From Zopfochytrium polystomum (Eukaryota > Chytridiomycota > Chytridiomycetes > Chytridiales > Chytridiaceae), in NCBI GenBank assembly GCA_025765615.1, contig JAIVFJ010000199.1, forward strand, positions 54,670-118,669: 64,000 nt of DNA, read 5' to 3'. The position numbers and the translations under genes are program-made. Position 1 is the first letter of the stretch. Each line of letters opens with the position of its first letter. The notes below the pieces were generated by a model that made no database searches, was not told the DNA's origin, and was given only the letters and a program-made list of their open reading frames with translations. Shown piece after piece: positions 42,057 to 46,802 of this stretch.

Positions 42057-45000
42057 ATGGCGCAGCCACGAGTCACCGACCAGCTCAACGCCATCCCACA
42101 AGACTTGACACTCGACCAAACGATTGCTGCCCCCTTCAGCGTGTCCTCGTGGAGGACAGCCGCGGCCGGGCAACCCTCCTCCCCACCGACCGTCCTTCCT
42201 AATGGGTCCGAGACCGAGAGGAGGTACAACTATGACGTACGACCCAATTGCTGCACGCACAGGGTTTCTTTCAGTTGTGCTCACAGTGACCTCCCGTCCA
42301 TGACCATAGGCGATGATCAGCTACTCCTGGAAGGACAGCGACATTGTTCGACCGCTTGTTGATAAGCTTGCTCGCCTCAACTTTCGACTTTGGATTGACG
42401 TGAACCGCATGAGGGACGACGTGAATGAGTCAATCATTGCCGGCATCACACAGTCTGCAGTGGTCATTCCGTTCCTATCGGATCACTACGTGGCATCGCA
42501 CTGCTGCAAGCTGGAAATCAAGTTTGCAAATGAGCTTCAAAAGCCTATTCTTCCGGTGCGACTGGCCAATTCAAGTGCCGTGAAGCTGAGCGCAGCCGCG
42601 TTTATTACAGCGGGACAACTCTGTACGTTTCCCTCAAAAAAAAAAAATTGTCAAGCAATAATAACGTCACCCAGACATCGATTTAGAAAACGGAGTGTCC
42701 TCCGAAACTCACGAGATATTGGCAGCGAGACTATCCCGAATGCTGCTTTCCGGTCTGAATGCTATCACATTAAGCCAGAGCGACGTGAAAGTCAACGAGA
42801 GCGACGGTATCATAGGTTCAGGTTCTTTTGGAAATGTTTACATCGGAGAATTTCACGGCCGGCAGGTTGCCGTGAAGCGGCTGAAACTCGGCAAACTTGG
42901 GGGCAAGGCGCAAGATGAGCTTATTGCGGAAGCCCGCATGTTGCAGAACTCCCGGCATCCTTACATCATTGGTTGCTACGGCATTGTAGCCGAAGACTTG
43001 GCATACTCCCTGGTCCTCGAGGTGAATACAGGGACCACATTTCCGCCTCATGTACGCTTATTATTCGTTCATTTTTAAGTTTGCATCTCTTGGAAACCTT
43101 TTCGACTATTACCAGAATCCTATGAACGAAAGCACGTCCGCTCGTGCGCGCGTAACAATACTGTACCAAGTTGCGACGGGAATGGCTTTTTTGCACGATA
43201 AAATGCGAATTCTTCATAATGACCTCAAGAGCATGAACGTGCTTCTTACAAGACACAACGCCGACGGTCCAGTATTTTCAAAGATCACGGACTTTGGGTT
43301 GAGCAAATTGAAGACAGAGACTCGAACCAAAAGCACCTCTTCTACGGCATTTGGATCTGCTTTATGGATGGCTCCTGAGCGGAAACTTATTCGCCCCAAG
43401 GTATGTTATCTTCTTTCACTGGTCATGCTTCGCCCAAATGAGCGACATTTCGTTAACAATTGATTCCTTCACCTCCAAAACGAGGTGTCCAACGCGAACG
43501 ACGTCTTCTCGTTTGCTGTGCTGCTGACCGAAGTTGTCAGCTGGATTGGCGTTTACGGAATGGACTGGGACGGTCTGGACGTGCAAGGTCTTCTTGAAGC
43601 GCTAAAGTCCGAGTCCGAGCGACAGGTGCTCTTGGAGCAGCTTGACGACGACGTATTCTCCGCGGTGTCGGGAGGACTGAAGCTGGGGCGACTCTTTCGA
43701 GAATGCTGGAGTTGGGACTTGACCTCTCGACCGTCGTTTGCGGAGATTTCCTTGACGTTGAGAGCCTTATTGGAGGGAGGTGAGATGGATGACTCGTCCA
43801 GCGGCTTCGTACCACGAGGTGATCCGCTACTTCATCCTTGTTGCAGTGCGATCGCTCTAAAACATGACTAGCCCGAGGTCACATCGAAACATCGAGGGCC
43901 GAGCCTAGCGTCACTGAAACGAATGTTCTTCGTCAAAGCGCAAGTGTAATTATAGACGTTTGTGATGAGAGCGGCGCGAAATTTGTGGCGGCTTTGGATC
44001 AAGGCGATAGAGACTTGGTTCAGCTGTCAATCGCTTCAGCCACAGTGCTTAGTATTGAGCATCCCGGTTTGTTTACTTGGTATTCTCTCTTGATAGATGC
44101 TATGCCAATACTAACGGAAAGCTATCGCGCAATAGAAATCAAGCTGCAGTTTGCGACGACCCAACTGCTTGCCAAAGCACTTCCGGTGTGCAAATTGCTT
44201 CAAGGCATTAGCCTTCGCAGTTAGTTTCCCCGAATGACCTGTTTCTTGTTGGCTCACTCTGCGGCACGGCCAGACAACGGACTGAGACCGAAAGAGGTAG
44301 CCATCATATCTGAGGCACTCAAGCTGCTGCCGTCACTCCGAACCATCGACTTTGGCGGTATGCCTCCCCGCACTAGATTTTTGTCGAAACGTGACTGTTG
44401 GTTTGCTCATTGCGCCGATAGGAAATAACATTGGCGATGATGGGGCCAAGGCGGTTGCAGAGATCGTTGAGACCAGCAAAACGCTGGAGAGTCTGTGCTT
44501 GGAAAGTAAGTTGCCTCGGCGCTGAACTGCAACGCGCAGGCCTTCATTGCTGAAGATGGATGAAACGGCTGTATCGTTTTTCAGGTCCTGGAAAGGGAGC
44601 TGGTGTAAATCGCATCGGACCGGTGGGAGCAAAAGCCCTCGCCAGGTCGATAAAAGTGAATTCCTCGCTGAAACTTCTTAGCTTGGGATGTAAGTAATGG
44701 CTTTGCGAGTTTCCATGCCGCCACTATCTCCTAATTCACTCCCAGGGAACAGAGTTGGGGAGGGTGGCGCCCTCGAAATCGCCGATGCGCTGAGGTCTAG
44801 CCAGACGCTTCAGTCTTTGTCTTTAAAGTGTAAGTTCGAACCCAGGCAGTGAAAAGCAGCAATGCTTATCTGGAATGCGACCTACAAAAGGGAATCGCAT
44901 CGGTACCGACGGCGCAAAAGCTATCGCAGTGGGATTAAAACAAAGCCGAAGTCTTCTTAGCATCGATCTCATTGGTAAAGACATCGTCCATTCTTCTTTC

Positions 45001-46802
45001 TTGAACATGGCCCACACGCAGGGAACGAAATGGGAACAGAGGGCGCCATCGCTATCGCAGAGGCGCTGAAATCCACAGAGTCGCTCAAGGAGATTGAATT
45101 GGAATGTGAGTAGGATGGTGATATTCCACATTCGGTTTCTGTGTCGCCGTTTTAATGCCTGCAAACATACTTGGATGTAACGTTTCCCCCTCAAGTCAAC
45201 CACTTTGGGTTGAGAGGTACTGCAGCACTTTGTCAGGCGTTGAAGGAAAACGCCTCCCTGTGGCGATTGAACCTTGCACGTGAGTTACCTTTTTAAGCCC
45301 TGTTGCAGTCGCCGAAATCCATTCGCCGAATCTGAGCGCGCCTGCAATTCAGGAAATTACTTTGGGCCGGAGGCGGCTCAATCGATAGCCGACGTTATAT
45401 GCACGAACTCCAGTCTACGATTCATTGATATCAGTGGTACGTGCAAAGAGGGCCAGTTGACCAAAGCACTGGCCACCCAAAGTTTGATGATTTCAAAAAG
45501 ACAATCAGATTGGAGTCTCCGTTGCGGCCACGTCTCTGCACGATTTCGGGAGTGAGTCTGCCAAGTAAAGCGCTGCCCTCCCACCTGTAACCGCTGCGTA
45601 CAACAGGGAAGCTTCGAAGCACGACGGGTGTCAAAGCTATCGCGGAAGCCCTCCGACTGAATCGCACGCTTTATACCATCAATTTGAGAGGTGCACCACG
45701 ACTTTCATCCATAGAGGCACGCATTTACACGGCCCTCCTCGCAGCGAACGAGCTTGGGCACGAGGGTGCCAAAGTCATTGCCGAAGCCATCAAATCGAAC
45801 ACCTCCCTTCGCTCTATTGACCTCGGATGTAAGATTCTTTGGTGCTCACACGGCTGGTTAAAAGAAAAAAAAACAAAAAAGGGAACGGGATGGGCGTAGG
45901 TGGAGCCGATTCGATTGGGGATGCTCTGAGGCATAACCCTTCCATCCAAGCCATGGAACTTGGGAGTACGACAGGAAAGATCCTTGTTCTTTGAATTGAA
46001 CGCGACCTACTCCGCAGGAAACAATTTCGGGTACGGCGGAGTCTATGCAATCGTCTCGGGCCTCACTTTGAACACGAACCTGCGGCGTCTCGGACTTGGA
46101 GGTAGCGCGTTGCCCTCACGTCGCTGTGCGCAGGCAAAACTCAGAGCACGATCCCTCTCCGTTCTTCAGGCAACAGCATCGGTGATAAGGAGGCGAAACT
46201 TGTTGCCCAGCTGATCAAGTTGAATTCCACTATCTCCGAAATCGATATCTCAAGTAAGGGAACCCAGACTCAACCCCAGGGTATTTTCTCCTTGTGGCGT
46301 GTAATTACGCGGGCAACCATCGCGCAGGAAACGAGATTGGCCCTGACGGTGCGAGGGCACTAGCAGACGCACTCCAAGCCAACGCTTCTCTCATCGATAT
46401 TCGCCTTGAACGTATGTCCACGGTTGAACCTTTTTTCTTTTTTTTTTTTTTTTTTTGTTTTGAAATTCGTCTCTTATCTCGTGACCTGATAATGGAGGAC
46501 GGTTCTGGCCCCACCGACGGTTTACTCAAACTCTCAAGGAAACGAGATCGGCGATGAAGGAGCGGTGGCTTTCGCGCGGTTGCTGACTGGGAATCAGACT
46601 CTCAGAAGAGTGAACCTTGAATGTGAGCCCCTCTCGTGTCTGTCCGCGCTTGTTAGCTTTCGCTCATCCCACTTCTCTCTCTCTCCCTCTCTCTCCCTCA
46701 AACTTTTTGCCGCCGCCAGTGAACCGGATCGGTACGGAAGGGGCCAAGGCGGTGACGAACGCCGCGAAGGCCAAAACGCCGGCGGTCGAAATCGCCGTGT
46801 GA
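42057..46802 (+). CDS. TIR domain - protein kinase - leucine-rich repeat receptor-like protein
   Basis: I assembled 23 exons into 1043 codons without a stop. Exons 1-7: 42057-42236, 42310-42622, 42675-43021, 43080-43400, 43485-43779, 43878-44066, 44097-44219. Exons 8-23 are LRR exons (44274 to 46802). Residues 62-160 form a TIR_2-type domain (MISYSWKDSDIVRPLVDKL, FRLWIDVNRMRDDVNESI). Residues 202-485 are a TKL-like kinase: GSGSFGNV (212-219), Lys232 in VAVK, HNDLKSMN (326-333), DFG (351-353), APE (378-380). HND replaces HRD, as in non-RD kinases. Residues 590-1043 are about 16 ribonuclease-inhibitor-type LRRs of 28 residues (pattern N.IG..GA.A.A.AL..N.SL..I.L).

No signal peptide or membrane segment is visible, so it is probably cytosolic. 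The combination suggests sensing by LRRs and output by TIR (possibly NAD cleavage) and/or kinase; this is inference. An upstream exon cannot be excluded. Confidence 0.88.

Follow-up and report, generated by a model that had tools for sequence, protein, structure and literature searches.

A TIR-kinase-LRR gene of the chytrid Zopfochytrium polystomum, a candidate intracellular immune-type sensor

A TIR-kinase-LRR gene

The stretch analyzed here (the window) comprises 64,000 nucleotides of the Zopfochytrium polystomum genome (assembly GCA_025765615.1, contig JAIVFJ010000199.1, positions 54,670 to 118,669 of the forward strand). An earlier note on this DNA, made from the sequence alone, described at 42057-46802 (+) of the window a gene joining a TIR domain, a kinase and leucine-rich repeats (LRRs), in what was thought to be a fungus. 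The fungal origin is supported, as NCBI taxonomy places Z. polystomum in the Chytridiales, and contamination is thought unlikely because the proteins match the Z. polystomum assembly. A spliced model and Pfam searches bear out the coordinates, strand, domain order and lack of an NB-ARC or NACHT domain, while the 22 introns and 1043 codons of the note become 23 introns and 1060 amino acids. Below, “the window gene” refers to this gene, C-numbers denote contigs or loci of the Z. polystomum genome, and P-numbers denote proteins from the protein searches.

The window gene consists of 24 exons in a single open frame, and all 23 introns are of the GT-AG type (Table 1). Two choices in the model are less certain: no stop interrupts the frame if intron 44067-44135 is retained, and the exon 6 acceptor has an in-frame alternative 6 nt upstream. 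The profile hidden Markov model search proposed in the note found all three of its domains in the predicted protein: TIR_2 at residues 62-174 (68 bits, E 1.2e-18), a kinase of the PK_Tyr_Ser-Thr profile at residues 208-476 (140 bits, E 1.3e-40) and, C-terminal to these, ribonuclease inhibitor (RI)-type repeats matching LRR_6 (175 bits, E 1.9e-53); no NB-ARC or NACHT match was found in the protein by Pfam. The LRR exons are 84 nt long in 15 of 18 cases, the exceptions being exon 10 (105 nt), exon 16 (51 nt) and exon 24 (83 nt including the stop), and the intron before each is in phase 1. The short motif in exon 1, upstream of the TIR domain, is conserved between the window gene and its paralogs; it is seen in six of eight aligned TIR-kinase rows, namely the six that cover this part of exon 1.

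Table 1. Features of the window gene (window coordinates) and TIR loci with a nucleotide-binding domain elsewhere in the genome (contig coordinates)
Feature	Position	Strand	Description
Exon 1	42057..42236	+	N-terminal tail with motif LxxIPxxLTxDQTxAxP (spliced model, alignment)
Exon 2	42310..42622	+	TIR core; the TIR_2 match extends into exon 3 (model, Pfam)
Glu129 codon	42514..42516	+	Aligns with Glu of Cat1, AbTIR and 7uxr (PDB alignments)
Exon 3	42675..43021	+	TIR end; N-lobe of the kinase with Gly loop GSGSFG and Lys232 (codon at 42875-42877)
Exon 4	43080..43400	+	Kinase catalytic loop HND at 43215-43223, DFG at 43290-43298, APE
Exon 5	43485..43818	+	Kinase C-lobe; domain ends at residue 476, position 43751
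Exon 6	43878..44066	+	Kinase-LRR linker
Exons 7-24	44136..46802	+	RI-type LRR array, one 28-residue repeat per exon
TIR-NB-ARC(-LRR) or TIR-STAND-LRR loci	C250:7584-10790, C250:46860-48626, C550:4234-7680, C50:65263-67707		

Because no protein about 100% identical to the window gene product was found among the matches listed in the protein searches, the gene is probably unannotated. A DNA search revealed no close second copy of its TIR-kinase part, the next best match being 70% identical. Three NCBI models (P0002, P0003 and P0004) carry TIR, kinase and LRR within one protein, and the N-terminal 79 residues of P0002 match a C62 locus at 99%. These fused models, together with the same domain order at paralogous loci, support a single gene; separate genes are thought unlikely, since 11 other loci have this order, with an interruption in one case. 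The predicted TIR-kinase-LRR architecture of the window gene is thus confirmed as real.

With respect to known receptor plans, a hydropathy scan suggested no membrane span, the best 19-mer (1.67) lying within the kinase core. By the same scan, the protein fits neither the plan of a Toll-like receptor (extracellular LRR, one membrane span, cytosolic TIR) nor that of an LRR receptor kinase (signal peptide, span between LRR and kinase), and its TIR domain precedes the kinase. An N-terminal effector (TIR, residues 62-174) and a C-terminal repeat sensor (the LRR exons, to the end) are present as in NLR (STAND) proteins, while the central NB-ARC or NACHT domain of that class is lacking. Membership of the NLR class was rejected on this ground, as Pfam identifies a kinase and no NB-ARC or NACHT.

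The TIR and kinase domains

Residue Glu129 of the window protein, within the segment ASHCCKLEIKFA, stands opposite a glutamate in all four PDB alignments shown, of which Cat1 ranks first (E 3e-5). This position is presumably that of the catalytic glutamate of enzymatic TIR domains. The residue is invariant across the eight aligned TIR-kinase rows and is retained by 15 of the 16 modeled TIR-kinases; the exception, C167, has alanine. By sequence, the best PDB relatives of the domain are Cat1 and AbTIR-type proteins, which rank above TLR and MyD88. TIR exon 2 folded alone with AlphaFold at a mean predicted local distance difference test score of 87, and the resulting model matches TIR domains of Brucella, plants, SARM1 and TLRs at E-values that are weak, 8.7e-4 at best. 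The features expected of a TIR NADase that are present are therefore the TIR fold, by these weak fold matches, and the aligned glutamate.

The Gly loop, Lys232, the catalytic Asp328 and the DFG motif of the window kinase are all kept. The arginine of the HRD motif is replaced, the motif reading HND in 15 of 16 TIR-kinase models and HNN in C241c; relatives of the chytrid lineage have HND, HHD, HLD or HSD at this position, and eight other outgroups have HRD. Non-RD kinases are associated with immunity, but a literature search directed at this link yielded nothing. By its motifs and nearest relatives the domain is of the TKL/TK type: its named relatives among the matches listed are the Raf-like SIS8/CTR1 (TKL-CTR1-DRK-2) and drkA, and its solved relatives include CTR1, ABL, SYK and EGFR. 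An AlphaFold model of P0002, built with 15 sequences (predicted TM-score 0.42), is good for kinase and LRR and poor for TIR; in a fold search with this model, BRAF and RIPK2 reached a TM-score of 0.8 by target length and EphA2 came first by E-value. In a kinase tree, from which P0099 was dropped for a missing motif, the nearest kinases are a TIR-less TKL group of the same species, with a joint clade support of 100/99, and two changes are needed to account for the TIR-kinases. The best TIR tree places the kinase-linked TIR domains together with weak support (35/24), while a TIR-Sel1 group is supported at 98/92. The TIR-kinases may have arisen from one fusion.

A TIR-kinase family

The TIR_2 profile matches 85 rows in the genome; most of the stronger rows were fetched and 16 TIR-kinase loci were modeled. 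The core intron phases are 1,0,0 in 15 of these and 1,1,0 in C162a. LRR exons follow the kinase at 12 of the 16 loci (the window gene, C62, C129, C4, C144, C162a, C241a, C241b, C241c, C241d, C415 and C167). The LRR exons of C241a are found some 2.5 kb past the kinase, and it is within the last kinase exon that this locus ceases to align with C162a. Sel1 repeats follow the TIR-kinase at C224, and no repeats were seen at C94, C60 (which reaches the contig end) or C162b in the DNA fetched. C173 has a kinase and LRRs, with no TIR in the DNA fetched.

Three pairs of TIR-kinases are nearly identical (C62/C129 at 97%, C4/C144 at 95% and C162a/C241a at 98%), so that the distinct genes number fewer than 16; the members of each pair are either haplotypes or recent duplicates. 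The ratio of non-synonymous to synonymous substitution rates (dN/dS) of the TIR-kinase parts is 0.14, 0.38 and 0.47 for these pairs and 0.23-0.32 for three further pairs; in three more distant pairs, of which two include the window gene, dS is saturated. By these ratios, the TIR-kinase parts are under purifying selection.

The LRR array

The repeats are of the RI type, as they match LRR_6 and have ribonuclease inhibitor, NLRP and RanGAP among their PDB matches. In the P0002 model, predicted strands alternate with helices, the strand occupying residues 24-28 in the best-formed repeats. The binding face of RI-type LRRs is made up of the end of the strand and the loop that follows. An 84-nt phase-1 exon was resolved for 110 of 129 LRR-like hits listed at loci with more than one hit, compared to 32 of 458 random open frames put through the same procedure; 2 of the 129 hits lie on the strand opposite to the genes, and the procedure itself prefers 84 nt. 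Chance as the source of these exons is excluded by the comparison.

The C4 locus has 20 LRR hits and its near-identical counterpart C144 has five. The two are 95% identical over the 3.3 kb leading up to the array and align again at its far end; no match was seen past C4 9501 and C144 126262 in the DNA fetched. Within the C4 array, long stretches match one another at 92-95%. Since each exon-plus-intron unit of the paralogs carries 84 nt of coding sequence with phase-1 ends, changes in array length would keep the frame.

Analysis of 18 of the 20 C4 units (leaving out the first, which is divergent, and the last, of 45 nt) showed that residue 1 is represented by eight amino acids and residue 28 by six, all others by at most three. 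Diversity is 0.57 in codons 28, 1 and 3 (nine nucleotides), 0.038 in the remaining exon and 0.037 in the introns, and sites with diversity above 0.25 make up 9 of 9 junction positions compared to 10 of 168 intron positions (p 2e-10). In C144, C162a, C241b, C415 and C241d, the contrast between junction codons and introns runs the same way (p 8e-8 to 2e-3). By variability, residues 28 and 1 rank within the top three of 28 in all five arrays ranked, and a rank test on five arrays set positions 24, 26, 28, 1 and 3 against the rest (p 7e-4 to 5e-2). Residue 2 of the C4 repeats is much less variable than residue 3 (0.18 versus 0.52), and the first 12 intron bases of this array are invariant, which favors selection at the protein level over a local mutational hot spot. 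Pairwise ratios of non-synonymous to synonymous differences (pN/pS) at concave positions, which are non-independent counts and hence descriptive, exceed 1 only in C4 (2.06) and C144 (1.81). Because the codon for residue 1 is split between neighboring exons, a new exon junction could also create a new residue.

Other TIR genes of the genome and other features of the window

Profile searches of the genome gave 86 rows for NACHT and 5 for NB-ARC, and in 16 cases a TIR row precedes a NACHT row on its own strand by 373-504 nt; for a chytrid, this NLR-like repertoire is large. One NACHT row (C199:46818) is found just beyond the window. At C250 and C550, profile rows and exons place TIR, NB-ARC and LRR in order on one strand, the second C250 copy (46860-48626) having been read up to its NB-ARC; C50 has TIR, a STAND NTPase (DUF7779 above the cut-off, NB-ARC not found) and LRR; and at C52, C67 and C229, TIR is followed by Sel1 repeats.

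A phase-1 intron after the TIR core was present in eight of the nine further TIR loci in which an intron was found (NB-ARC, Sel1 and unclassified), C24a differing; no intron after the core was found at C443 and C493. The sharing of this intron between the kinase class and the others points to one TIR module. The loci at C250, C550 and C50 resemble the window gene in this intron and in their 84-nt LRR exons, and differ in having NB-ARC or, at C50, another STAND domain in the middle instead of a kinase. The existence of TIR-NB-ARC-LRR, TIR-NACHT and TIR-Sel1 loci in the same genome indicates that the kinase sits in the nucleotide-binding slot. The proposal of the earlier note that the kinase takes the place of the nucleotide-binding domain is thereby strongly supported, as the TIR-NB-ARC-LRR loci share both the TIR exon boundary and the one-exon-per-LRR structure.

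Elsewhere in the window, retrotransposon genes lie at 32569-36240 and 53010-56725, of the Copia type (Retrotran_gag_2, RVT_2) and the gypsy type (RVT_1, integrase, chromodomain). One open frame at 17219-19885 matches FSH1, RWD and an Obg/YGR210-like GTPase in succession, and may be a real fusion or a read-through between neighbors. An open frame at 4925-5599 has a Bestrophin_2 match.

Relation to known systems

No TIR-kinase of another species was found among the matches listed (the best 120 of 256, the best 120 of 444 and 5 of 5) in word-based searches of limited reach, the two larger of which scored part of their candidates. The literature searched yielded no TIR-kinase-LRR protein in this order, or in any fungus, and to this extent the statement in the earlier note that no such family had been described holds. 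It is weakened by RIPK2-like LRR-TIR-kinase proteins reported in lancelets in 2025 (accessible part of PMC11747288), which make the trio of domains not unique, and by plant TIR-kinase combinations mentioned in print. The lancelet proteins have the same three kinds of domain, but in another order as written there and in an animal, and an independent origin is presumed.

LRR-containing receptors have been considered foreign to fungi. The accessible portion of Soanes and Talbot 2010 (PMC2939053) describes fungi as without LRR pattern-recognition receptors, gives no fungal TIR (PF01582), NB-ARC plus LRR or NACHT plus LRR, and lists four LRR-kinase genes for one chytrid. Dyrka 2014 (PMC4986451, in the text available) has no NLR in chytrids and fungal NLRs without LRR, the absence of LRRs from fungal NLRs is also stated in PMC5658179, and a 2025 review (PMC12881547, in part) has LRRs and NBS-LRR apparently absent from the fungal genomes analyzed. 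According to the available sections, PMC9815663 (2022) states that TIR has been reported in NLRs of Chytridiomycota and PMC12258605 (2025) gives NLR counts in Chytridiomycota species starting at one. The fungal NLRs, which combine NACHT or NB-ARC with WD40, ANK or TPR, resemble the window family in having repeat sensors built of highly conserved units with length polymorphism and positive selection (PMC4986451, as available), whereas the window gene lacks a nucleotide-binding domain and has the LRRs said not to exist in fungi.

Plant TNL receptors are TIR-NB-ARC-LRR proteins, and they share with the window gene the N-terminal TIR, the C-terminal LRR, a regulatory domain in the middle, a multigene and partly clustered organization and the lack of a membrane span; the window gene differs in its kinase in place of NB-ARC, its RI-type LRRs in single-repeat exons and its fungal host. 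The Toll-like receptor and IRAK pathway is built from LRR, TIR and TKL kinase, parts held in common with the window gene, which is a single predicted cytosolic chain with a kinase that need not be IRAK-like. The LRR-kinases P0133 (RING-kinase-LRR_6, from a marine transcriptome) and P0024 (LRR_6-kinase) likewise combine a TKL-type kinase with RI-type LRRs but are without TIR. The parts and the logic of TIR-kinase-LRR are thus already known; what is new here is the order of the domains, the host kingdom and a sensor made of exon units with variable junction residues.

Function of the window gene

The data presented above have led us to lean towards a model in which the window gene encodes a cytosolic, immune-type sensor of non-self with both TIR and kinase outputs. 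By analogy with other LRR proteins, the C-terminal RI-type horseshoe would bind a ligand on its concave face, and the N-terminal half would be released or clustered as a result. The TIR domains could then come together and cleave NAD+ or a related nucleotide, as the conserved glutamate and the enzymatic TIRs among the nearest solved relatives suggest, and the TKL-like kinase would be turned on through proximity. Since the kinase occupies the slot held by NB-ARC or NACHT in the sister TIR genes, oligomerization would proceed through ligand, TIR and kinase contacts and not through a STAND ATPase. The array would change in length through duplication of whole exon-plus-intron units, as seen in the paralogs, and its most variable residues would lie at the end of the β-strand, as in five young paralog arrays. 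Double-stranded RNA was prepared from Z. polystomum strain WB228, which may differ from the strain of the assembly, in a virus survey (PMC7482067, accessible part), making a parasite load plausible.

Several observations weigh against this model. The immune-receptor reading of the earlier note draws its support from the paralogs, with their 20 versus five LRR copies and hypervariable binding-face codons, because the window array itself shows no such contrast (diversity of 0.645 in junction codons and 0.587 in introns; Fisher p 1.0); evidence of selection consequently rests on the paralogs. The C62 array also lacks the contrast (p 0.59); both arrays are old, and the window LRRs are diverged. 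Concave pN/pS is below 1 in C162a, C241b and C415 (0.82, 0.76 and 0.64, with both rates high), and the codon set 28, 1 and 3 was picked after the alignments had been seen. HND in place of HRD could make for a weak kinase. The NCBI models P0121 (C144) and P0123 (C415) end ahead of the LRR exons, and between the kinase and LRR of C241a, a copy that may be broken, lies about 1.1 kb of rearranged sequence. C167, which has no TIR glutamate, is also missing from the TIR_2 rows, C241c has the HNN noted above, and C415 and C241b have no in-frame Gly loop in their models; several paralogs look damaged or partly dead.

The damaged copies, the two models that end ahead of the LRRs and the seeming lack of annotation of the window gene would also be expected if neighboring genes or exons had been misjoined or the locus were in decay. 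This is highly improbable given 23 of 23 GT-AG introns in one frame, the recurrence of the order elsewhere in the genome, the three fused NCBI models and the purifying selection. A somewhat unlikely alternative is that the TIR domain is a scaffold and the kinase the sole output, as in a fused Toll/IRAK-like relay. The TIR domains of MyD88 and TLRs, which are scaffolds, also match the window TIR; the window kinase motifs are intact, the P0002 model resembles BRAF and RIPK2, though EphA2 leads by E-value, and C167 has the architecture without the glutamate. Retention of the glutamate in all other models and the higher sequence rank of enzymatic TIRs over TLR and MyD88 argue for an enzymatic TIR instead.

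Other alternatives concern the ligand. Chytrids are not known for regular hyphal fusion, and nothing in the data links the family to fusion, making it unlikely that its members tell self from non-self within the species as do the WD-repeat NLRs of heterokaryon incompatibility. The family nonetheless has the signature reported for fungal NLR repeats, namely highly conserved repeats, length polymorphism and positive selection (PMC4986451, available text), and arrays do differ between two near-identical copies in one assembly. The grouping of the TIR-kinases with a TIR-less TKL group of the same species (100/99) ties the TIR to a house lineage of signaling kinases and is consistent with a developmental or stress-signaling family with no role in defense, whose LRRs bind internal partners. 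We consider this very unlikely, because a hypervariable binding face and changes in copy number are unexpected with a conserved internal partner.

Implications

Beyond the non-self sensor favored above for the window gene, a broader and tentative proposal, which we regard as possible though less than probable, is that Z. polystomum has combinatorial intracellular receptors in which a single TIR module is combined with interchangeable middles (kinase, NB-ARC, NACHT or none) and sensors (LRR or Sel1), with arrays that are resized by whole-exon duplication and junction residues 28, 1 and 3 that set specificity in the manner of a repeat code. Recognition can be tested directly through the hypervariable junction residues. 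The TIR-NB-ARC-LRR loci together with the TIR-kinase-LRR family imply that this architecture either dates back further in the opisthokonts than has been supposed or has re-arisen in a chytrid, and the exchange of the nucleotide-binding domain for a kinase raises the question of whether a TIR receptor needs a STAND ATPase at all.

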